Assembly: GCF_014652535.1 (NCBI RefSeq)
Contig: NZ_BMYZ01000002.1
Location: forward strand, 496,001-560,000
Origin: Cellvibrio zantedeschiae
GTDB taxonomy: Bacteria > Pseudomonadota > Gammaproteobacteria > Pseudomonadales > Cellvibrionaceae
DNA length: 64,000 nucleotides
Direction of reading: 5' to 3'
Positions within the stretch are counted from its first letter, which is position 1. The number at the start of each line of letters is the position of its first letter. Below, piece after piece: positions 1 to 20,190 of the stretch. Made by a program: the position numbers and the translations under genes. The notes beneath the pieces are model-generated. The model did no database searches, was not told the DNA's origin, and saw only the letters and a list, made by a program, of their open reading frames with translations.

Positions 1-150
1 GAGCTCTTTCTTTCGCCAGTATTCAACTGATTCCCGGCTTACCGGTCCTTCTTCGTTGGCTGTTCCGATGTAAAAGCCGGCCGCCGACTCCAAAACCTGT
101 AGTGGCAATCTGATCTGACAATGCGTTTTGGCAAGAAAACCTACCTTCAT
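1..150 (-). CDS. Partial hypothetical protein, ICE leader-linked gene 0
   Basis: The first 50 codons of a minus-strand gene that runs off the left edge of the window. The start is the ATG at 148-150, preceded by a near-perfect ribosome binding site (AAGGAGGT, about 6 nt upstream). The visible residues begin MKVGFLAKTH and include a stretch GFYIGTANEEGPVSRES followed by EYW. I do not recognise the family; small proteins with a GFYIGT and SRES pattern occur on plasmids and ICEs, but I cannot name a function. It is the first of four genes that each follow the repeated structured leader described below, so it is probably co-regulated with the DUF3577 and antirestriction genes. The C-terminal part is not visible. 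Confidence 0.7.
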   Translation of the reverse strand, partial: MKVGFLAKTHCQIRLPLQVLESAAGFYIGTANEEGPVSRESVEYWRKKEL

Positions 151-307
151 AATGAACCTCCTTAATTAAAGAAATCCATTAGGTGCCGTCATCCCATTGG
201 ATGAATGACCCAATGGGAGTGACAAAAATAAGCGCAATAAAATTCGACCCTATTGCAGCGCTTGTGAGGATCTTTTTAAAGTCACAACGGAAGCCGTTGC
301 CGCTTTA
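151..307 (-). promoter_or_regulatory. Structured 5' leader, copy L0 (divergent copy)
   Basis: Leader between its promoter and the gene starting at 150. Helices seen on the minus-strand RNA: P1 277-307 (outer TAAAG/CTTTA plus CAACGG/CCGTTG); P2 246-272 (GATCCT pairing with AGGGTC around a loop with CACAAGCGCTG); P5 193-217 (CCCATTGG/CCAATGGG, extended by an outer GTCA/TGAC). P3 and P4 of the other copies are not found here, and the ribosome binding site is not obviously hidden. P1 and P2 align with L1 and L2 almost base for base in the loop, so homology is clear even though the 3' half has diverged. Confidence 0.65.
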
Positions 308-309
308 AA

Positions 310-338
310 ATCTTCAATAAAGATGAATGCTTTGTAAA
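310..338 (-). promoter_or_regulatory. Putative sigma70 promoter of leader L0
   Basis: Minus-strand -35 TTTACA (333-338) and -10 GAAGAT (310-315) with a 17-nt spacer, placed just upstream of helix P1. The individual boxes are weak. The main support is that all four leader copies have a 17-nt-spaced candidate in the same position relative to P1. Confidence 0.4.
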
Positions 339-589
339 AAACACCCATGTTTATTAGAGATTTATTCGCGTCCATGCGAATAGAAACTTATCTGAATTCG
401 TCGCCGTGAATTACCAACAAGTTAACCATCGAGCACGGTCAAGTCCGCACAACGATTCACGTCAATTTTGCTCGCGGACGGACGCGGTTTAGGTGGGATT
501 TTGCGGCACTACGAACAGTCAGTGCGCTGAGAGTGAATCACGATAATGTACATGATCCATTGTCAACACACTGAAAATCCCGAAGATAA
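339..589. other. Gene-free stretch upstream of leader L0
   Basis: No credible gene. A perfect small hairpin lies at 364-381 (ATTCGC/GCGAAT). An imperfect inverted repeat GATAATG (542-548) and CATTGTC (558-564) with a 9-nt spacer could be an operator. Otherwise I see nothing that explains this stretch. Confidence 0.4.
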
Positions 590-900
590 GATGGCCCGGA
601 CGTTTACACATCCAGGGCCATGTTTTGATGGGAAGGTATCGCATCTCACTGCGATTGATACGCTGGGGGCAGTTAGAGCCAGTGGGGAGGACGCCAGCCA
701 AGGCAACCACCAGCTCACCCAACGAAAAGATACAAGGATCGTAAAACGATGCGGCAATTAAACCTCGTTCGAGCCGCCAAACCCCTAAGGGCTAAAGGTC
801 GCGGAAACAGCCGCGTCTGGAGAATCGTCATGGTGAAAATGTCGTTTTAACAACATTTTGGCCATGACGCCTCTGGGATGGAGTAATCCATCCCCGAAGC
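590..900. other. Hairpin-dense noncoding region, candidate structured RNA or origin element
   Basis: About 310 bp with no convincing gene but many inverted repeats: 592-620 (TGGCCCGGA with TCC-A-GGGCCA), 638-655 (ATCGCA/TGCGAT), 738-750 (ATCGT/ACGAT), 764-773 (CTCG/CGAG) inside a GCGGC/GCCGC pair, 800-815 (CGCGG/CCGCG), 826-869 (about 15 paired bases, CGTCATGG and AAAATGT arms with one 2-nt internal loop), and 875-894 (GGGATGGA/TCCATCCC with a GTAA loop). It lies just after the DUF3577 stop. It could be a noncoding RNA, a conjugation or replication origin element, or in its last hairpin a terminator for the DUF3577 gene. No U-tract follows that hairpin. Confidence 0.45.
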
Positions 901-935
901 ATACATGGCGCGCCAAACCAACACAATCCTACATC

Positions 936-1751
936 CTAATGGGGTTGTTGATAGGTGCGCTGTTGAGCAAATTGCTGGTTCGTTGAGCGAAATGCACCTT
1001 GCGGTTTATTGAACTCAAACTCCCAAGCTGTAGCCGCCTTGTTCCAGCGATATCCGAGTGATTTAAGCTCGGCCACCTTGGCCTGGAAATCCGGGTGGCT
1101 TTTATCCAGTCTCACAGAGGGTAATACCCAGGCTGTGAGATCTCTCGCCCAGCGATAACCCTCTCCCTTCAGGCGTTCCTTCGTAATTTCGAAGTTTGGC
1201 TCCGTCTGGGACAGTTGAACCACGAAAGGGCGATTGTTTGGAGCTTGCGAGGTAGGCTCTTGCGCTAGCTGAGCATTCCGAGCAGATCCTTGAGCATGTA
1301 CACCAAAATCGGTTGTAGTGGCTTTTTCATTCCGCTTCAGCTTCATCGTCTGATCACCCACTTTGAGATGGAGGATATTGATAAGCTTTGCCGAATAGTT
1401 AACCCCTAACTTACCTGGTGTCTGGCTTTCGGGACCGTACACAAATGGTTTTGCACGGTAGTCCGCCAGTCGTAAGCCAACGAATACTTTTGTGTCCGGA
1501 TCGTTAATGTGCTCCACAAACGGCAGCAGTTCATTAAGGGCCTTTTCACAAGGTATTTTCAACGAGATGAAAGTCTTATCAGGGTTGAGTGGATTTCCTT
1601 CCAGCATGCAAAAATTTGCAGACCAGAAAGGAGCAAAATCCTGACCGGACTTCGGGTTAACCAATTCAAGTGAATCAAGGTAACCCAAACCTTCAGTATG
1701 GGCGTTGAAATAATTTATTGGGGCTGATTGAGCTTTGGAATTCGAAATCAT
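936..1751 (-). CDS. STY4534-type ICE replication protein, DUF3577
   Basis: A 271-residue protein. The first ~125 residues fit DUF3577 (STY4534 family, found in PFGI-1/SPI-7 class ICEs): a YFNAHTEGLGYLDSL motif, a central FVGLRLADYRAKPF segment, and a GVNYSAKLINI strand. The C-terminal half is less usual: after a linker rich in Gln, Ala and Asn come two related segments, GYRWARDLTAW and GYRWNKAATAW, about 45 residues apart, then a Gln-rich tail. The start is the ATG at 1751 because the ribosome binding site (GGAG) sits 7 nt upstream; the longer open frame would read through the leader RNA. The exact biochemical role of DUF3577 is unknown to me; replication-associated is the family label. It has its own promoter and structured leader (L1). 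Confidence 0.8.
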   Translation of the reverse strand: MISNSKAQSAPINYFNAHTEGLGYLDSLELVNPKSGQDFAPFWSANFCMLEGNPLNPDKTFISLKIPCEKALNELLPFVEHINDPDTKVFVGLRLADYRAKPFVYGPESQTPGKLGVNYSAKLINILHLKVGDQTMKLKRNEKATTTDFGVHAQGSARNAQLAQEPTSQAPNNRPFVVQLSQTEPNFEITKERLKGEGYRWARDLTAWVLPSVRLDKSHPDFQAKVAELKSLGYRWNKAATAWEFEFNKPQGAFRSTNQQFAQQRTYQQPH

Positions 1752-1940
1752 GTTAATTCTCCGGGGGTAGAAAAAGAAAAACCCGGAGGCAACAGACTCC
1801 CGACGGGAGTAGTTCCCATCGGGCAAGATGAAGAAGCCAAAGCTTCAGAAATGAATATAAACGCCGTCTTTCGACACGATCCCATTACAGCGCTTGTGGG
1901 GATCTCTTAAAAGGCTCAACGAATAGCCGTTGAAGCTCTT
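1752..1940 (-). promoter_or_regulatory. Structured 5' leader, copy L1
   Basis: Minus-strand RNA helices, 5' to 3': P1 1909-1940 (12 of 13 pairs); P2 1878-1904 (GATCCC/GGGATC closing a loop with CACAAGCGCTGTAAT); P3 1866-1875 (GTC-GAAA-GAC, a GNRA loop); P4 1833-1846 (GAAGC/GCTTC); P5 1799-1823 (CCCGATGGG/CCCGTCGGG with one G-U); P6 1759-1788 (CTCCGGG/CCCGGAG), whose 3' arm contains the ribosome binding site of the DUF3577 gene. The G-U in P5 is only a pair on the minus-strand RNA (A-C on the other strand), which fixes the direction of transcription. Confidence 0.75.
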
Positions 1941-1949
1941 ACAAATGAA

Positions 1950-1978
1950 ATGGTAGTCAACCTCGTTGCGCATCGCAA
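1950..1978 (-). promoter_or_regulatory. Putative sigma70 promoter of leader L1
   Basis: Minus-strand -35 TTGCGA (1973-1978), 17-nt spacer, -10 TACCAT (1950-1955). A start site about 7 nt further would fall at the first base of helix P1, as in L2 and L3. Confidence 0.5.
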
Positions 1979-2046
1979 GCATAGAAGGTGATCTAGTCGA
2001 GATTCGGGGAAGTTGGCGTGGGGTACGTCTTACTGAATCAAAAAAT

Positions 2047-2076
2047 AAAATCCCCGGGTTAACGCTCGGGGATTTT
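2047..2076 (-). terminator. Intrinsic terminator after the gene at 2094-2816
   Basis: A perfect 10-bp stem AAAATCCCCG / CGGGGATTTT with a 10-nt loop; on the minus strand it is followed by TTTTATTTTTTG-like U-rich sequence (2040-2050). It lies 18 bp past the stop codon of the preceding gene and isolates that gene from leader L1 downstream. Confidence 0.85.
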
Positions 2077-2093
2077 ATAGTTTGATAAATACA

Positions 2094-2816
2094 TCACGCT
2101 GCAGCGTTCGCATCAGAATCAGGTAATTCAGTTGAAGCGAAATAAGCATCGACATTTGCAGTCACTGCTGTCATCAACTCAACGTGAAAATCTAACTCGA
2201 TTTTCGCACGACGCGTTGCAAGAGTTTCCTTATCGGCAATTCCTGCTCCGAGCAGCTTTTCTTTATCAGCTTCTATCCGTGGGGACAGTTGCTCTTTAGG
2301 GCTAACAGATTTAACTTCATTTCCGTTCTGACGCAGGCTTGCACCGTGATCAGCGTAAGCGCGAGTAGCACCTGGACGCTGGCCGTAAGTAGCAAACATG
2401 TTCAGTTCGGTGTGAACACCAATCTCAGCATTTACAAGTTTGCGCACGAGCATTTGAGCAGCTTCCTGAGACAGATTGACAGAAACGTAGTAACGCTCCT
2501 CTCCATCTTTCAAGCCCACATTGAGGTACGGTGTTGGGCGGCCATCAACATCACGCTCGATAACGCGGGCACTGTTAAGAATGCCTGATACATTAATCGG
2601 CGTAATACCTTTTTGACGCAAAAAATCCAGAGCCTTTGCAGACGCCGAATCGCCTTTATTGCCCTTGTACCCCTTTTTAGCTTCTTCGTCGCCAACGAGT
2701 GCTTTCGCATCGCTGATGAGCGCCTCAGATTCTGGGGTGGAAAAATACAGCATTCCCAAGAATGCACTGTAACGCAAGTTAAAAGCGGAATGATTGGTTT
2801 TGGTTTGAATAGCCAT
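2094..2816 (-). CDS. Hypothetical ICE protein, leader-linked gene 2
   Basis: A 240-residue soluble protein with no signal peptide or membrane segment. I do not recognise the family. Visible features: N-terminal MAIQTKTNHSAFNLRYSAFLG, a Lys/Gly-rich middle (KKGYKGNKGDSA), a strand-rich segment around PYLNVGLKDGEERYYVSVNLS, and a charged C-terminal helix ending in DSDANAAA. The start is the ATG at 2816, with GGAGA 7-8 nt upstream; the longer frame to 2912 would translate the leader. It stands between two genes with the same type of leader and has its own terminator, so it is a monocistronic cassette. Its place next to DUF3577 and antirestriction genes suggests a role in element establishment or DNA handling, but that is only context. 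Confidence 0.7.
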   Translation of the reverse strand: MAIQTKTNHSAFNLRYSAFLGMLYFSTPESEALISDAKALVGDEEAKKGYKGNKGDSASAKALDFLRQKGITPINVSGILNSARVIERDVDGRPTPYLNVGLKDGEERYYVSVNLSQEAAQMLVRKLVNAEIGVHTELNMFATYGQRPGATRAYADHGASLRQNGNEVKSVSPKEQLSPRIEADKEKLLGAGIADKETLATRRAKIELDFHVELMTAVTANVDAYFASTELPDSDANAAA

Positions 2817-3012
2817 GATGTTATCTCCGGGATAGAAAAATAAAAAAGCCCGAAGAGAAAACTGACCCCCGATGGGAGTAGTTTTCCCATCGGGCAATGA
2901 TGATGAAGCCAAAGCTTCAGATTAGTGAGTCTAAACGCGGTCTTGCGACTTGATCCCTTTGCAGCGTTTATGGGGACCTCTATAAAGGTTCAACGAACGC
3001 CGTTGATGCCTT
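2817..3012 (-). promoter_or_regulatory. Structured 5' leader, copy L2
   Basis: Helices on the minus-strand RNA: P1 2984-3012 (AAGG/CCTT, 2-nt internal loop, TCAACG/CGTTGA); P2 2952-2978 (GGTCCC/GGGATC, loop CATAAACGCTGCAAA); P3 2940-2949 (GTC-GCAA-GAC, GNRA); P4 2905-2918 (GAAGC/GCTTC); P5 2868-2894 (perfect CCCGATGGG/CCCATCGGG); P6 2825-2855 (CTTCGGG/CCCGGAG with one G-U), again covering the ribosome binding site. The P6 wobble pairs only on the minus strand. Compared with L1, P2 shows a base change that keeps pairing through G-U. Confidence 0.75.
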
Positions 3013-3021
3013 AACACACTC

Positions 3022-3050
3022 AGTCTAGCGCTAACCCTAAATGGGTTCAA
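3022..3050 (-). promoter_or_regulatory. Putative sigma70 promoter of leader L2
   Basis: Minus-strand -35 TTGAAC (3045-3050), 17-nt spacer, -10 TAGACT (3022-3027), about 9 nt before helix P1. Confidence 0.55.
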
Positions 3051-3077
3051 GATGAAACAGCGGAAATGGCGAGTGCA

Positions 3078-3497
3078 TTACTCGACAGCCCACCATATTT
3101 TCTCCCACTCAGGATGCGATTGGTAAAAGCTAGAAAGCCACATGTGATGAAGCGCCAATCGCGGATCCTCATCAGCGAGGAAGCAGAACGTGTACATACT
3201 GCAGATAATACCGAAAGCGTCTTTGGACACCACGCCGGAATAGTTTCGTCCGAATGGCAAATCAATAAGGAAGTTTTCTCCGGAGCTGGGTGCCATGTAA
3301 AAGCCACCGTTACCGAGCTCGAAAAAATCCCACTGATCAAAAACGTATTTGGCACAGATTCTTTCAGCAATATGGTGCGTGAAGTTCTCGAAACGGAAGT
3401 GCGCTTTTGGAAAATGCAAAGCAAGCACTTTTGCTCGATCCTGTTCAGGAACCTTTACAGAAAAAACGGAATTAGGCGAAACGGCCAAGCATGACAT
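3078..3497 (-). CDS. ArdB/KlcA-family antirestriction protein
   Basis: A 139-residue protein. It matches the ArdB/KlcA family, which protects incoming conjugative DNA from type I restriction: a WDFFELGNGGFYMAP motif at about residues 55-70, then a DAFGIICSMYTFCFL segment and a C-terminal HPEWEKIWWAVE end, in the same order and at about the family length (140 residues). The start is the ATG at 3497, with AGGAGA 8 nt upstream in the leader. It is the first gene transcribed of the four leader-controlled cassettes. It has a structured leader (L3) whose last helix can fully hide the ribosome binding site. This fits a gene that should be switched on transiently, for example after entry into a new host; that timing is inference. 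Confidence 0.82.
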   Translation of the reverse strand: MSCLAVSPNSVFSVKVPEQDRAKVLALHFPKAHFRFENFTHHIAERICAKYVFDQWDFFELGNGGFYMAPSSGENFLIDLPFGRNYSGVVSKDAFGIICSMYTFCFLADEDPRLALHHMWLSSFYQSHPEWEKIWWAVE

Positions 3498-3683
3498 AGT
3501 TATCTCCTGTAGAAATGAAAAAACCCGAGGAGATAAACTTGTCCCGTTGGGAAAATTTATCCCAACGGGTTTGTATCTGACGTTGAGGCTTACGCCTCGA
3601 ACTTGATGATAAGCACAACCTTTCGGTTTGACTCTGTTGCGGTGCTATTGAAAGTCTACTAACAAGTCCAGCATTGCTGAGCT
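3498..3683 (-). promoter_or_regulatory. Structured 5' leader, copy L3
   Basis: Helices on the minus-strand RNA: P1 3665-3683 (AG-TCAGC/GCTGGACT); P2 3630-3656 (GACTTT/AGAGTC); P3 3617-3628 (AACC-GAAA-GGTT, GNRA); P4 3585-3598 (GAGGC/GCCTC); P5 3543-3569 (CCCGTTGGG/CCCAACGGG); P6 3500-3536 (TTATCTCCT/AGGAGATAA, 9 bp, covering the ribosome binding site). The sequence is the most diverged of the complete copies, yet every helix is kept by compensatory changes: P4 GAAGC/GCTTC becomes GAGGC/GCCTC, P5 swaps an A-T for a T-A pair, P2 and P3 are rewritten but still pair. That is direct evidence of a conserved RNA fold. Confidence 0.78.
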
Positions 3684-3690
3684 TGGAAAA

Positions 3691-3719
3691 ATATTAAATC
3701 CAATTTCAATTAATCACAA
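3691..3719 (-). promoter_or_regulatory. Putative sigma70 promoter of leader L3
   Basis: Minus-strand -35 TTGTGA (3714-3719), 17-nt spacer, -10 TAATAT (3691-3696); the best -10 of the four. It overlaps the 3' end of the upstream gene (stop at 3710). Confidence 0.6.
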
Positions 3720-4105
3720 GTGACTATAGCGACATCTTTGTACTGAAAATATTTTTCCGCTAATTCCGAAAATAGAATCTTTTGAAATCCCAGATTTCCG
3801 GTTTCACTTTCGTAACATATTTCGCATTCCCTATCGACTTTAGAGTTCCCAAGATAGTTCAAAAACTGCATATATGCATCGCTGTTCATGTCCGGACAAG
3901 CCGCTAAGCTTCGTGCAATTTGGTTGATAATCCGCTGGCGCGTTCGATAGCGCCGAGACCGATTGGCCGACTGCTTTCTTTTCATTTCTGGAGTCGAAAT
4001 GACTGGGCGTCCGCGCAACTTGGCGATACCAAATGCATCCTCCGTGCGTTGGTCAAATTTATCTTTCATTTTTGCTAGTGGCACCAGAAATTTGCGTGAC
4101 GTCAC
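3710..4105 (-). CDS. Hypothetical basic protein with RGRP / Arg-rich segment
   Basis: 131 residues from a GTG start at 4105; an ATG at 4069 (MKDKFDQRTED) is an alternative, and neither has a strong ribosome binding site. A GRP motif followed by a very basic helix (KRKQSANRSRRYRTRQR, about residues 42-58 from the GTG) suggests nucleic-acid binding. The C-terminal half is acidic and has two Cys (ECEIC). I do not recognise a family. The stop overlaps the promoter of leader L3. It lies 16 bp downstream of the DUF2786 gene and may share its transcript. Confidence 0.55.
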   Translation of the reverse strand: MTSRKFLVPLAKMKDKFDQRTEDAFGIAKLRGRPVISTPEMKRKQSANRSRRYRTRQRIINQIARSLAACPDMNSDAYMQFLNYLGNSKVDRECEICYESETGNLGFQKILFSELAEKYFQYKDVAIVTCD

Positions 4106-4121
4106 GCCTAATGTTCGTAGA

Positions 4122-4808
4122 TCAAGTACTCAGCAATTCCAGCTGTTCCCGATGATCCTGCCCCATGGCTCTATGAATCTTAGCGCTGGCACCAGCGTTC
4201 CGGCCTGCGTGTGCGGCACTCAAATCTCGCTTGGTAACTTTGCGAGTCTCCAATGTTATGTTGACTACCTCTGGGTATTGTTTCGCAATATACGCAGAGA
4301 TAATTTCGTCGGCCGCTGGATCAGCTTCTGCAAATTTCGCGATTACATTCCAGACCGACGTAACCCAATGCTCCGCAAAGATTTCACCTTGGCGCCGTTT
4401 GGAAGAAAGTCGGCAACGGGAGGACATGGCTGCAACGTAATTGCGCCTATCCTGGATAAGTTGACGATGCAGAACATCGAACGTGTAGGTAGCAAAGTCC
4501 GGTTGATTTCCAACGCCGATAATCACTGCTTCTTTTCGAATCAATTTTTCGGTGATAACGGTGCAGGAGAACGCCTGAGCGCAGGTATTGGCTAATTTAA
4601 TCAGCCAAGTTGGCGGGCGTACACCGATGTTAAAGCGGGAGGTGACGGCAGCAGACGCGATGATGTCGGCCCTTCCTAGGTTATGGGCTGCCATTAAGGC
4701 CTTCGCCTGGCGCCAAGCAATTTCAGCTTCATGTGGATTGGAAGATTTTGCCATTGCCAAGCACTTGGATATTTTTTCCATAATGCGTTGATTAATATTT
4801 TCTGTCAT
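4122..4808 (-). CDS. DUF2786 domain protein
   Basis: 228 residues, start ATG at 4808 with a strong GGAGGAG ribosome binding site. The N-terminal ~40 residues fit DUF2786 (IMEKISKCLAMAKS, then EAEIAWRQAKALMAAHNL), a short helical domain common in phage and ICE proteins. The rest has an alpha/beta segment around the motif VIIGVGNQPDFATYTFDVLHR, and a C-terminal region with AHAGRNAGASAKI. The molecular function of the family is not known to me. It belongs to the ICE accessory block between traT and the antirestriction gene. Confidence 0.7.
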   Translation of the reverse strand: MTENINQRIMEKISKCLAMAKSSNPHEAEIAWRQAKALMAAHNLGRADIIASAAVTSRFNIGVRPPTWLIKLANTCAQAFSCTVITEKLIRKEAVIIGVGNQPDFATYTFDVLHRQLIQDRRNYVAAMSSRCRLSSKRRQGEIFAEHWVTSVWNVIAKFAEADPAADEIISAYIAKQYPEVVNITLETRKVTKRDLSAAHAGRNAGASAKIHRAMGQDHREQLELLST

Positions 4809-4824
4809 GTCTCCTCCGCTACTT

Positions 4825-5550
4825 TCAGAAATTTATTAATTTTGTAACAGGGCATGTAGCAGTCGGCATTTGAAACTCACCGCGCCGAAGACGAGTGCGC
4901 CTATCAATTATTTCTTCAACAGTTAATTGGGATGGTTGTTCTGGATAACTTGCGCCGGTCGGATTCAAATATGGTCCGTTGTGGTCATAGGTTGGATGGA
5001 AATATTCGCTCCAAATCGAGATGTCGTCCTTGCAGCCGAAATATCTGTAGATATGGATGAGATCTCTCGCAACTTCATTTTTTTTACCTGCGTCAAACGA
5101 GAGCCTGAAGGCGCTTAACGCACCGGAATAGTTAGAAGCTCTAGCCTGAGCTTCCGCTCTTCGTAATAAACCGATTGGTGATTTTCCGACGTATTGATCC
5201 CATTCACTGGCTAGCTGAAATGTGCGTTCCTCATCGTAGACGTTTGCCTGAATAAACGAGTCTATATTTCTGTAAGCCACCAAGGTCGAAATCACTTTGG
5301 AACTGTTAAATTGTCTTTTGCAATCCCAGTCATCAATCTTCATGCATTCAATAAGTACCATCCTTAGTCTTTCGAAGTTTGATTGGGTTGGTGAGGTTGT
5401 ATATTCTGCAATTGCGGCGTTTGTCTCTGAATCGATTTTCACCTCATGCAAAGTCGATCTCAAAAATAAATAGATAATAGCAACTGCCAGAAATATTCCA
5501 ACTAGAATATCCCACCTAAATTTTTCAAAAAAAAGCGATTTTAAGTTCAT
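4825..5550 (-). CDS. Hypothetical membrane-anchored protein
   Basis: 241 residues from the ATG at 5550; the frame stays open to 5616 but only with a TTG start. One N-terminal membrane helix (about residues 14-33, ILVGIFLAVAIIYLFL) is followed by a soluble, mostly helical domain of about 200 residues that includes ALSAFRLSFDAGKKNEVARDLIHIYRY-like helices reminiscent of Sel1/TPR repeats, though I cannot count clear repeats. Four Cys occur in the soluble part. No family recognised. It lies between traT and the DUF2786 gene on the ICE. Confidence 0.6.
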   Translation of the reverse strand: MNLKSLFFEKFRWDILVGIFLAVAIIYLFLRSTLHEVKIDSETNAAIAEYTTSPTQSNFERLRMVLIECMKIDDWDCKRQFNSSKVISTLVAYRNIDSFIQANVYDEERTFQLASEWDQYVGKSPIGLLRRAEAQARASNYSGALSAFRLSFDAGKKNEVARDLIHIYRYFGCKDDISIWSEYFHPTYDHNGPYLNPTGASYPEQPSQLTVEEIIDRRTRLRRGEFQMPTATCPVTKLINF

Positions 5551-6813: not shown

Positions 6814-7050
6814 TTATTTTCTTCGGAAAGCGCTAGCAAATTTTTTCGCGGGCTGTCGATTTGGAGGTATGGAGGGGTGGTTACGTTCGGCCTGCTTGCG
6901 TAGGTAAATTTCTTCTCTGTCGATTGCCACGGTGGGATCTGCTTGAACGCCGATACGTACTTGATTTCCCTTAACGCCCAGTACGGTGATCACAATTTCG
7001 TGGTCGCCGACGATGAGGGATTCGCTAATGCGGCGAGTTAAAATCAGCAT
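6814..7050 (-). CDS. csrA: CsrA/RsmA-family RNA-binding regulator carried by the ICE
   Basis: 78 residues. Begins with the typical CsrA strand [16 protein letters not shown], then [21 protein letters not shown] and [11 protein letters not shown], covering the whole 60-residue fold, plus a basic tail of about 18 residues ([10 protein letters not shown]). CsrA dimers bind GGA motifs in RNA hairpins and usually repress translation. R44-equivalent in the VRIGV strand/loop and the N-terminal L4/R6 positions of the fold are present. The start ATG at 7050 has AAGGA just upstream, which itself fits the ANGGA core and could allow autoregulation. It lies between pilL and the orphan at 6466. Confidence 0.9.
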
Positions 7051-7504: not shown

Positions 7505-9499
7505 TTAGTGGGGCCAAGCAAAGTGCTTACACGTAGGGAAGTTGCTGCAGCCAATAAAAGACTTTCCAGCGTTCTTGCCGCCTTCTTTGAATTTCTTCAT
7601 AGAAAGTGTTCCGGTGGTGCAGTCCGGGCATTTTTGTCCAGGCATCGATTTGGTTTGAGCCGTTGTCTCTGCTTTGGGCGTCAATGGCTTTTGTCCATTG
7701 CTAGAGGGCTTGGAAGGCTTACTCTTAGTTTGGGCTGTCGGGGAACAGGACAAATCGAACGCGCTGACTGTGTCCGGTAAGGCAGCTCCCCTAAAGGCTG
7801 CTAATTCCCTATCCAGCGCATTCCATGCAGCGGTAACTACCGCCAGATAGTCAGATTTGCGATGTGCAATTAAGTCAAAGGACTGCTCGATCCGGGCGGT
7901 GTATCCATAATCCAGGAAGGAGAAGTGACCATCGAGCGCCAAGACAGTTGCTGTGCCTCGTGTAGTAGGGTCGAGTCGCAAACTCTTTGCTCGTGTGATA
8001 TAGCCGACCGAGAGGATTCTTTCGATAGTGGATGCGTAGGTACTTGGTCGGCCAATTCCTAATTTATCCAGCTTTTCAACCAACGTTTTCTCGGTAAAAC
8101 GCTCTGGTGGTTTTGTAGTTTTTATCTGCAGGTCAACTTTCAAGGGCTGAAGCTGTTCGCCAATCTCAAGCCTTGGCAATTTGCTCTGCTCAGCAACTGG
8201 ATCAGCAGGTGAGTTGGTATTATCTAAAGCAGTGGCAGCTTCAATTACTTCCTTGTCGGTGCCAAACTTTTGCGCAGCAGCTCGCCATCCAGCTTCCTTG
8301 GCAGACCGAGCACGAGCTATAAATGCATCGCTGTGAGCATTCTCAAAGGTAACTACAGTCGCTAGGTCTAGCCCATCACTCAACTGCGATTCAAGAGTGA
8401 TCTGCCACACCAGGCGATAGACGGAAATTAGTAATGGATCCTCAACACCTGAGATAAGTGCGTCTTGTAAGTTGATATCCGTCGCCCTCAGGCATTCGTG
8501 GCCTTCTTGAGCGTTCGCTGATGCTTTGTAATCGCGTGGGCTTGCTGGTACCGGGAGATTCTGGATTTTGGCAAAAGCTCTAATATTAGTTACCGCTTCA
8601 GCTGACATCGTTGGACTGTCAGTACGGTGATAGGTGATCAGCCCTTGCTCGTATAATTTCTGCGCCGCGTCCATTGCTTGTTTGGTGGTGAGTTTCAATG
8701 CTGCCGCCATCAATCGTACGAAAGAGCTGGTTGTTAACGGCTTGGGTGGTAGCACGACCCTGGGTTTCGAGTCAGAGGAGATCACCTTGAGCGACTGGGT
8801 GCGATCAACAACTTCTTGGGCTGTTGCTCGCAAGGTAACTAGTTCACCGTCCTTAATCTCTGGCTTCCAGGTTGCGAAGAACGGTATCGCGGATTTTTCC
8901 AATGAGACAGTAATGCCATAGTGCTGAATAGCTACAAAGCTGGTTATTTCCTTCTCGCGTTCAACAACCAGCTTTACGGCGACCGATTGGACACGACCTG
9001 ATGTAAGGAATCCGGTGTTTCCGAGTGACTTAAACTTCTTGGTGAGTTCAGGGGATACTTGGTAGCCAACGTATCGATCAATAATTCGTCTTGCTTCCTG
9101 GGCACGGACAAGGGGCCAGTCAATACTACGTTTGTTTTTAATTGCCAGATTAAGGGCGGCCTTCGACACTTCTGTGTAGGTAATTCGTGCAATTTTAGAG
9201 GCAGATGCTTTACCAATTGTGTTAGCGACGTGAGCGGCGATGGCTTCGCCTTCTCGGTCTGGGTCTGTCGCAAGGTAAATTACATCGGCTTGTTTAGCGG
9301 CGGCAATGAGATCCCTCTCCACTTGATACTTACCTTCCATGACAACCCATTCAGGTTTGTGGTCTGGAGGTTCAACGCCCATCCGGTCGGTGGGCAGGTC
9401 TTTGAAATGGCCAATGGTGGGAATTATTTTAAATTCCGGGAAATATCCCCGGAATTTTTTTGCCTTGTTTGGTGATTCAACTACGAGGAGAACATTCAT
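7505..9499 (-). CDS. topB: DNA topoisomerase III, ICE type
   Basis: 664 residues, type IA topoisomerase. Toprim motifs: VVESPNKAKK at the N-terminus and ATDPDREGEA at 77-86. The active-site tyrosine is Tyr290 in ITYHRTDS. A second conserved block GIGRPSTYASTI follows, and a C-terminal zinc ribbon has the CPDC and CSNFPTC pairs. It relaxes and decatenates single-stranded DNA intermediates during transfer or plasmid-like replication. Start ATG at 9499, with GGGAG upstream. It directly follows ssb (21 bp gap), the usual pairing in PFGI-1-class elements. Confidence 0.95.
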   Translation of the reverse strand: MNVLLVVESPNKAKKFRGYFPEFKIIPTIGHFKDLPTDRMGVEPPDHKPEWVVMEGKYQVERDLIAAAKQADVIYLATDPDREGEAIAAHVANTIGKASASKIARITYTEVSKAALNLAIKNKRSIDWPLVRAQEARRIIDRYVGYQVSPELTKKFKSLGNTGFLTSGRVQSVAVKLVVEREKEITSFVAIQHYGITVSLEKSAIPFFATWKPEIKDGELVTLRATAQEVVDRTQSLKVISSDSKPRVVLPPKPLTTSSFVRLMAAALKLTTKQAMDAAQKLYEQGLITYHRTDSPTMSAEAVTNIRAFAKIQNLPVPASPRDYKASANAQEGHECLRATDINLQDALISGVEDPLLISVYRLVWQITLESQLSDGLDLATVVTFENAHSDAFIARARSAKEAGWRAAAQKFGTDKEVIEAATALDNTNSPADPVAEQSKLPRLEIGEQLQPLKVDLQIKTTKPPERFTEKTLVEKLDKLGIGRPSTYASTIERILSVGYITRAKSLRLDPTTRGTATVLALDGHFSFLDYGYTARIEQSFDLIAHRKSDYLAVVTAAWNALDRELAAFRGAALPDTVSAFDLSCSPTAQTKSKPSKPSSNGQKPLTPKAETTAQTKSMPGQKCPDCTTGTLSMKKFKEGGKNAGKSFIGCSNFPTCKHFAWPH

Positions 9500-10086: not shown

Positions 10087-10335
10087 TTAGAGCTCATCAA
10101 TATCGCTCACGTTTCCAACGTCGTTGTGTTCCAGGATCGCGGGAATTATTTCCACATCACTTTTACTGATTGCTTGCTCGACTAACTCCAAACGGCGTAT
10201 TTCATTGTCCAAGGAAACAGCCGTGACACTCCATGGCTTCTCCCCGAGTTCTGCGAATAAGTCCATCACTCTCGTTTGTTCTTCTATAAATCTACTTTCA
10301 TCAACAATGCTATAAACGACTGTCATGTGTTTCAT
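10087..10335 (-). CDS. Small acidic hypothetical protein
   Basis: 82 residues from the ATG at 10335; the longer frame would include the upstream terminator. Sequence starts MKHMTVVYSIVDESRF and ends in an acidic DVGNVSDIDEL. No known domain recognised. It follows an intrinsic terminator (10348-10373), so its expression depends either on readthrough or on a promoter I could not locate in the short gap. It precedes ssb by 87 bp. Confidence 0.55.
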   Translation of the reverse strand: MKHMTVVYSIVDESRFIEEQTRVMDLFAELGEKPWSVTAVSLDNEIRRLELVEQAISKSDVEIIPAILEHNDVGNVSDIDEL

Positions 10336-10347
10336 GGGTGGCACCTG

Positions 10348-10373
10348 AAAAAAAGGCGCTCCGAAGAGCGCCT
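10348..10373 (-). terminator. Intrinsic terminator after the DnaT-like gene
   Basis: Perfect 8-bp stem (AGGCGCTC / GAGCGCCT, loop of 4) at 10354-10373, followed on the minus strand by a run of seven T (10348-10354). It separates the DnaT-like gene from the small gene and ssb. Confidence 0.85.
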
Positions 10374-10480
10374 GCAAGGTATTTTGACTTGACGTTGATT
10401 GATTTCTCTTAACCAACACTATCAGTCTAATGATCTGTTTGATGCGTAACGAGGCGAAAACTAAAATAACAATGTGCAGA

Positions 10481-11311: not shown

Positions 11312-11549
11312 AATCTAAAGAGATCCTGCTTATTTTTCTAGCGATAAAGATGATAAGTGGTTGCATGACTGCCAACATTCCAATTGCGTAGACGGAGTTA
11401 GAAAATTTATCGAAATCGCGCTGGAGTGCATTTGAAATTTCTTCAAATGTAAAAGCATTGTGCGTGCCGCCATACCATAAAATTGCTGCGACCCCGCCTA
11501 CAATTATCGTGAATCCTACTAATAGCCCATTCCAAAATTTATTGTTCAT
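11292..11549 (-). CDS. Small two-helix membrane protein
   Basis: 85 residues with two predicted membrane helices (about 7-27 and 52-71) joined by an amphipathic loop, and a basic C-terminus (ARKISRISLDYESRKK). Start ATG at 11549, with GGAG 8 nt upstream. Its 3' end overlaps the DnaT-like gene. No family recognised. Confidence 0.6.
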   Translation of the reverse strand: MNNKFWNGLLVGFTIIVGGVAAILWYGGTHNAFTFEEISNALQRDFDKFSNSVYAIGMLAVMQPLIIFIARKISRISLDYESRKK

Positions 11550-20113: not shown

Positions 20114-20190
20114 TGGTAGCTAGAGGCGGGATTGAACCGCCGACCCCAGCATTATGAGTGCTGTGCTCTAACCAGCTGAGCTATCTAGCC
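20114..20190 (-). tRNA. tRNA-Met (CAT), likely ICE attachment gene
   Basis: 77 nt with encoded CCA (20114-20116). Acceptor GGCTAGA / TCTAGCT, D-arm, anticodon loop CTCATAA with CAT, T-loop GGTTCAATC. It has the elongator tRNA-Met character (GGCTA...). The 3' end faces the ICE and parA, as expected when an integrase uses the 3' half of a tRNA as attB. Confidence 0.95.

Follow-up and report, generated by a model that had tools for sequence, protein, structure and literature searches.

Four consecutive genes of an integrative and conjugative element (ICE) of Cellvibrio zantedeschiae, all on the minus strand (starts at positions 150, 1751, 2816, and 3497 of the 64,000-nucleotide stretch analysed here, hereafter the window), are each preceded by a leader of one common fold. 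The leaders run up to the Shine–Dalgarno sequence (SD) and start codon of the element genes, and they show what is expected of cis-regulatory leaders, namely a conserved covarying structure in the sense of the genes and directly upstream of them. Their most probable role is that of a switch acting in cis on the antirestriction, RadC, and replication genes of the element. This element is an ICE of the PFGI-1 type, as TIGR03761, STY4528, and PFGI-1 ParB proteins exceed their cut-offs in the window. It bears antirestriction, ssb, and topoisomerase genes, and TraU and TraG_N are encoded immediately before a further leader copy at contig position 441674.

In the four leaders of the window, helices P1, P2, and P5 are always present, while P3 (closed by a GNRA loop) and P4 are each found in three. 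The loop of P2 pairs with a stretch 3′ of P3, or of the place of P3, forming in all four leaders an H-type pseudoknot in which P3 is an insert (loop/partner in leaders 1 to 4: AAGCGC/GCGCTT, AAGCGC/GCGTTT, AAACGC/GCGTTT, and AGCAC/GTGCT). A strand that pairs with the SD is found in three leaders, leader 1 having a different SD hairpin instead. An earlier note, made from the letters of the window alone, had described a four-copy leader with helices P1 to P6 (P6 being the SD-pairing strand) at these genes, and all of its helices were recovered, as were the compensatory exchanges that it quoted for P2 (GATCCC/GGGATC against GACTTT/AGAGTC) and P4 (GAAGC/GCTTC against GAGGC/GCCTC). Its fold, however, overlooked the pseudoknot, the alternative pairing of the 5′ arm of P5 with a strand further downstream, and five copies outside the window.

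Conservation of the fold

The evidence for the fold comes from alignment A7, to which eleven genomes contribute 53 leaders, 52 of them distinct. With the pseudoknot counted, the fold has 24 pairs, and 93.4% of 1211 cells are paired, compared to 66.0 ± 0.9% in shuffled alignments, and sliding the 3′ partners by one to three columns reduces the proportion to 27–38%. Double-changed cells number 354, against 107.7 after shuffling, and the score is 0.751 against 0.247. Double-sided changes affect all 24 pairs (shuffled mean 20.1), a total reached in 3 of 500 shuffles. The alignment was fitted to P1–P3, which favours those helices; the pseudoknot lay outside the fitted structure, though its bases counted as sequence. 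Taken alone, the pseudoknot has 88.8% of 303 cells paired (64.1% when shuffled) and 95 double changes (33.1 when shuffled), although for two of its five measures 34 and 41 of 500 shuffles attain the observed value. The knot was also sought with a strict descriptor, which accepted 39 of the 53 leaders and 2 of 53 shuffles.

In a home-made tree-based null that follows the manner of R-scape without being R-scape (60 simulated alignments), 12 of the 24 pairs reach E < 0.05, of which four belong to P2, three each to P1 and P3, and two to the pseudoknot. The same threshold is passed by two pairs that are not part of the structure (120–141 and 120–125), so the subfamily structure adds noise. G-U cells number 66 and A-C cells 4, which indicates that the fold belongs to the RNA of the gene-sense strand; the earlier note had reported G-U pairs only in the sense of the minus-strand RNA. 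The earlier note had staked its fold on covariation in a wider alignment, and the pairs do covary among the 52 distinct leaders, bearing out the picture of a conserved structured leader repeated across one ICE.

The leaders of the window

Two covariance models served to locate the copies: R1, built from the four window leaders, and R2, built from 27 copies. Leader 1 (151–308; this and all following leader coordinates are on the minus strand) matches R2 at 223–308 with 66.9 bits. Its P1 is formed by 303–308/276–281 and 294–299/285–290, its P2 by 267–272/246–251, the pseudoknot by 258–263/230–235, and P5 by 210–217/193–200, with the SD at 157–163 held within a hairpin. It has neither a GNRA-looped P3, nor P4, nor a run of U. 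Leader 2 (1752–1941; R2 match at 1852–1941, 88.8 bits) holds an inner P1 at 1928–1932/1917–1921, P2 at 1899–1904/1878–1883, the pseudoknot at 1890–1895/1859–1864, P3 at 1873–1875/1866–1868, and P4 at 1842–1846/1833–1837. The two arms of its P5, a and b, lie at 1815–1823 and 1799–1807, followed by strand c at 1782–1789, next by the U-run, and by the SD strand d at 1759–1765.

Leader 3 (2817–3014; R2 match at 2926–3014, 83.1 bits) repeats this layout, with the inner P1 at 3001–3005/2991–2995, P2 at 2973–2978/2952–2957, the pseudoknot at 2964–2969/2933–2938, P3 at 2947–2949/2940–2942, P4 at 2914–2918/2905–2909, a at 2886–2894, b at 2868–2876, c at 2849–2856 (U-run next), and d at 2824–2831. Leader 4 (3498–3687; R2 match at 3604–3687, 66.8 bits) has P1 at 3682–3685/3663–3666 and 3676–3679/3669–3672, P2 at 3651–3656/3630–3635, the pseudoknot at 3642–3646/3612–3616, P3 at 3625–3627/3618–3620, P4 at 3594–3598/3585–3589, a at 3561–3569, b at 3543–3551, c at 3529–3536 (U-run next), and d at 3500–3507. 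Sigma70-like sites with 17-nt spacing, also reported in the earlier note, are the top-scoring ones 5′ of all four leaders with a scorer that favours this spacing. Over the 53 leaders, the promoter signal is modest (8.58 versus 7.89 in shuffles; 38 of 53 exceed their own shuffles), and the promoter-like sites are located 5′ of P1, not within the folds.

A platform of alternative pairings

Behind the core, the leaders carry an optional P4, hairpin P5 (a:b), strand c, SD strand d, and the start codon, in this order. Strand a can pair with b, giving P5, or with c, and strand c can pair with a, in a terminator-like hairpin, or with d. A run of at least five U stands between P5 and the SD in 31 of the 49 leaders used for this part of the analysis. 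The c:d pairing has −10.8 kcal/mol, compared to −7.86 ± 0.31 with partners swapped among leaders, and the a:c pairing −12.86, compared to −9.18 ± 0.35, both lying beyond all 200 permutations. Since each pairing beats its swapped versions, selection appears to maintain both, although they exclude each other. With d present, in folds of the stretch that begins at P5 and extends 20 nt into the gene, an energy model favours c:d over a:c in 48 of the 49 leaders and predicts a mostly paired SD, likewise in 48. When d is absent, a:c outweighs a:b in 31 of 49 (21 of 31 with a U-run and 10 of 18 without). These predictions fit two successive off locks or, in the leaders lacking the U-run, a short-lived a:c state with an open SD.

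Proposed mechanism

Each leader is probably a cis-acting RNA switch, the copies acting together as an element-wide regulon. The control of expression is inferred here, and the reading as a regulon device, already put forward in the earlier note, fits the list of genes, which includes antirestriction, RadC, and replication-linked functions. As sequence comparison shows, the gene-sense transcript folds into P1 and then P2, the loop of which is knotted to the stretch behind P3 (usually GNRA-looped), and the three-way switch of strands a to d follows. Before d is transcribed, a:c would form and, where a U-run follows, cause an early stop like that of an intrinsic terminator, representing the first lock. 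Once d is made, c:d would form and hide the SD, representing the second. Both locks would keep the genes off by default, leaders without a U-run having the second lock only. The pseudoknot domain would read an element-wide signal—a protein of the element or the host, or a small molecule—and shift the balance so that the SD opens. The antirestriction, RadC, DUF3275/DUF6094/helicase, and replication-linked genes would in this way be switched on together, for example during transfer.

Several points weigh against this mechanism. In leaders with a U-run, both predicted states are off, and the on state needs something beyond them; in those without it, a:c would free the SD, that is, would act with the opposite sign. 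In the swap test, the own partner ranks in the best tenth for just 28 of 49 leaders in the case of c:d and for 25 of 49 in that of a:c. Moreover, not all of the 48 leaders with a paired SD hide it through c:d, as different pairs do so in several of them. The platform folds start at P5, leaving out the core and the kinetics, and strands a, b, c, and d were cut by script. The set covers 49 of the 53 leaders, two being left out for having no called start, one for a wrongly called start, and one for having no P5 found by the script. Finally, conserved unpaired bases are few (C59 in 100%, A152 in 94%, and T156 in 92% of the 53).

Distribution and associated genes

With R1, eight copies were found in the C. 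zantedeschiae genome, all on a single contig, and a search of 96 genomes taken as relatives, own included, gave copies in 8. R2 extends this to nine copies in the own genome, which lie between 441 and 500 kb of one contig, five of them outside the window, and to copies in 8 of 21 genomes of Cellvibrio and 10 of 144 of Cellvibrionaceae. The weak members of this set are G010 (E 0.024, marginal) and G817 (E 7.8e-4 and weaker). In the other genomes, the copies are clustered on one to three contigs, with one copy of G007 (at 453498) far from its five others. On the own element, copies occur on both strands, always in gene sense wherever a start was called. Among 390 genomes of the order and 369 of the class, R2 matched the own genome only; 11–12 candidates were scored per genome, so the absence outside Cellvibrionaceae is not firm. 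Nor did R2 match, at E up to 10, any of 19 loci with DUF3275 genes from other taxa.

Alignment A7 was made from 63 matches, after dropping three from L064 (identical to L066), one from L075 (identical to L065), and six above E 0.02. Three of these six are antisense echoes of P1 (window 2983, window 276, and L054 13046), while the others (L069:6691, L069:7965, and L055:2225) resemble, by eye, true leaders without P1 or cut copies. In the two weak P1-less matches of L069 (6691–6783 and 7965–8055), inspection by eye shows the knot together with a P3 of 8 bp closed by a UUCG loop, in a form between those of Cellvibrio and radC RNA.

The genes behind the leaders include those for DUF3577, antirestriction, RadC, DUF3275 (followed by DUF6094), and SNF2-type helicase proteins, as well as small proteins of about 70 residues. 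Behind the 51 leaders with a called start, there are 10 of these 70-aa proteins, 7 RadC, 7 DUF3577, 6 DUF3275, 4 MAIQ-type, 3 LPLQVL-type, and 14 other proteins, classes being assigned by regular expressions on the first 60 residues and Pfam being run on representatives from the own element. In the window, where all four genes are on the minus strand, leader 1 precedes the start of a small protein (1–150) that runs off the window and shares an LPL-VL stretch with the proteins behind leaders L053:5181 and L057:5841, as judged by eye and regular expression. Leader 2 precedes a DUF3577 gene (936–1751; PF12101, E 2.3e-18), whose product remains below the cut-off of the model for STY4534-type ICE replication proteins (56.9 of 160 bits). 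Leader 3 precedes the gene for an unnamed 240-aa protein (2094–2816) with relatives on stretches from G001, G006, and G013, and leader 4 precedes an antirestriction gene (3078–3497; PF03230, E 1.6e-14). The gene that ends at 2094 is followed by a strong inverted repeat between runs of T and A (window 2042–2083), which probably acts as a bidirectional terminator. Elsewhere, at L003:5333–9312, a DndB-like protein, an unknown protein, a NotI-type restriction endonuclease, and a D12-class adenine methyltransferase are encoded together on the element according to Pfam, a likely defence island. No second copy of the tRNA region near 20117 was found in the 124 kb searched.

Relationship to radC RNA and other pseudoknotted RNAs

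No Rfam family reaches its gathering score in the leaders, a result on which the earlier note had made the novelty of the fold depend. Relaxed searches gave 12 sub-threshold matches in window 1–5000 and one in L003 14500–19500, all to unrelated families. That note had named STAXI RNA (RF01728) among the motifs to compare, and this comparison gave no match; radC RNA (RF01754), which it did not name, is the closest in build and place. Leaders and radC RNA share P1 with an internal loop, P2, the pseudoknot of the P2 loop, and P3, and both sit in the replication/antirestriction module of ICEs. On plasmids from Stutzerimonas, Pseudomonas veronii, and Enterobacter, 3, 2, and 4 copies of radC RNA lie around the same gene module (STY4534/DUF3577, DUF3275, DUF6094, and helicase). 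These are 3 of 7 plasmid stretches with DUF3275, those from Shewanella, Aliivibrio, Paraburkholderia, and Comamonas giving no match to RF01754. Out of 12 further loci with the DUF3275 gene of the module, one (L077) has a single copy and 11 have no match. The radC RNAs are located at L095:6174–6317, 7533–7678, and 11368–11506; L096:9674–9819 and 10297–10444; L100:4718, 6652, 7563, and 11122; and L077:2806–2954.

A descriptor of the pseudoknot unit finds the first unit in 10 of 10 radC RNAs and in 13 of 200 shuffles, with pair exchanges such as GGATC/GATCC and TGACC/GGTCA within the unit. Unlike the leaders, radC RNA carries a second, tandem unit on its 3′ side (GCAUC/GAUGC type; 10 of 10, versus 3 of 200 shuffles). 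In the Cellvibrio leaders, such a unit was called in 3 of 51, all in the P5 region and none credible (3 of 204 shuffles). P3 is longer in radC RNA than in the Cellvibrio leaders. Further downstream, 8 of 9 radC RNAs examined have a CCCnnCGGG-like string followed by an SD-complementary strand, and their c:d pairing is slightly better than with swapped partners (−10.41 versus −9.02; 9 of 10 used, L100:4718 being left out by hand). The structure line of RF01754 shows neither knot. Structure lines of the Rfam type generally do not show pseudoknots. A 2020 study counts radC among the families with covarying pairs absent from the database structure (PMC7657543).

As for membership in RF01754, no match reached 40 bits in the window or in 7 related loci, nor in ten leader-bearing genomes, whose sub-threshold matches fall away from the leaders. 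Likewise, R2 has no match at the radC RNAs, and R3, a model built from radC RNA, has none at the leaders. Because neither model detects the other, the leaders are filed as a new family, built like radC RNA and outside RF01754, which need not share a common descent with it. In two betaproteobacterial elements without an RF01754 match, the same platform was seen by eye. Upstream of 10971 in L101, a Comamonas plasmid, the hairpin and SD-complementary strand are accompanied by a similar knot (descriptor score 21.8, versus 18.7 for the best of 8 shuffles), whereas upstream of 9982 in L099, from Paraburkholderia, the descriptor finds no knot. Both elements perhaps hold further families of this kind.

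The preQ1-II riboswitch, which lies upstream of an SD, consists of a 5′ hairpin and an H-type pseudoknot into which a second hairpin is inserted, and its knot itself takes up the SD. The leaders resemble this topology, but handle the SD through a separate platform, and have no Rfam match. STAXI RNA, like the leaders, comprises pseudoknots near ssb, topoisomerase, and antirestriction genes, according to PMC2864571. Compared by description, STAXI is a pseudoknot in two to three tandem repeats, often with UUCG loops, while the leaders have one unit with a mostly GNRA loop. The covariance model of RF01728 has no match in the leaders, and no credible pseudoknot repeated in tandem at least twice was found in 51 leaders. 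A sequence search for STAXI was negative in all 369 class genomes, but also in 14 controls, so it shows no absence; a published 20-nt primer had no match in viral contigs.

Alternative explanations

A small-molecule riboswitch, with the pseudoknot as its aptamer, is a doubtful alternative to a switch of another kind. A compact 5′ pseudoknot domain with a terminator/SD platform is the anatomy of a riboswitch, and the table of Weinberg et al. (2010) marks radC with a question mark in this respect (PMC2864571). However, helices and most loop bases vary even among copies on one element, and the target genes suggest no metabolite. Most small-molecule riboswitches have more conserved unpaired bases than the few invariant ones found here.

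Repression by the CsrA protein of the element, which would bind GGA near the P5 loop and at the SD, with the folds merely presenting the sites, is unlikely. The element bears a csrA gene (6814–7050, minus strand), a candidate trans-acting partner that was weakly supported on testing. ICEs of Legionella are also known to carry csrA genes (csrT). An extra csrA was found in 7 of 7 leader-bearing Cellvibrio genomes and in 2 of 13 leader-less ones, G010, with its one marginal leader match, being set aside. This gene lies 1.6–7.3 kb from a leader in six genomes (G000, G001, G007, G009, G012, and G013) and on the same contig as a leader in G006. Nevertheless, this co-occurrence may merely reflect the presence of the same element, no second csrA was seen in G817, and G021 has only a weak fragment on a different contig. 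Of 49 leaders, 47 have GGGA in the stretch preceding the SD, but the core motif of CsrA, A-N-GGA, is depleted outside the last 18 nt of the leaders (6 found, 23.7 ± 4.8 expected) and occurs in 4 of 49 SD regions, while plain GGA is at chance level (95 versus 102.3). The leaders fail to show the pattern of A-N-GGA sites in loops and at the SD that would mark a CsrA-regulated leader.

It is very improbable that the folds work at the level of single-stranded DNA, serving the transferred strand as an entry promoter or replication start. Such a role was once suggested for STAXI (PMC2864571) and would suit the antirestriction, ssb, and topoisomerase genes of the element, but the G-U excess and the GNRA loops indicate RNA, the gene-sense copies are found on both strands, and the promoter-like sites precede P1. 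The least probable explanation, with hardly any likelihood left, is that the four copies are recent duplicates with inherited, functionless pairing: leaders 1–3 do share long strings, but a blastn-type search of the own genome with the region (E ≤ 0.001) gave no copy-to-copy match, only a terminator-like inverted repeat, and pairing is kept through all the double changes of the wider set.

Significance

As far as searched, the Cellvibrio leader RNA is not in print. The literature search returned nothing under "radC RNA" or "radC motif", nothing on a Cellvibrio noncoding RNA with a pseudoknot, and only a frameshifting review for ICE leader RNAs with one. The leaders stand as an undescribed RNA tied to radC RNA, a motif published in 2010, and combine a strongly covarying fold with a testable switch for genes that help conjugative elements to establish. 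Tentatively, the leaders, radC RNA, and perhaps STAXI, with one, two, and two to three units, respectively, might form one superfamily that combines a repeatable pseudoknot module with a common a/b/c/d platform. Through it, conjugative elements of a large class would turn on their anti-defence and replication genes together, in response to one element-specific cue. With nine natural variants of one device in a single genome, the question of the effector becomes directly testable.

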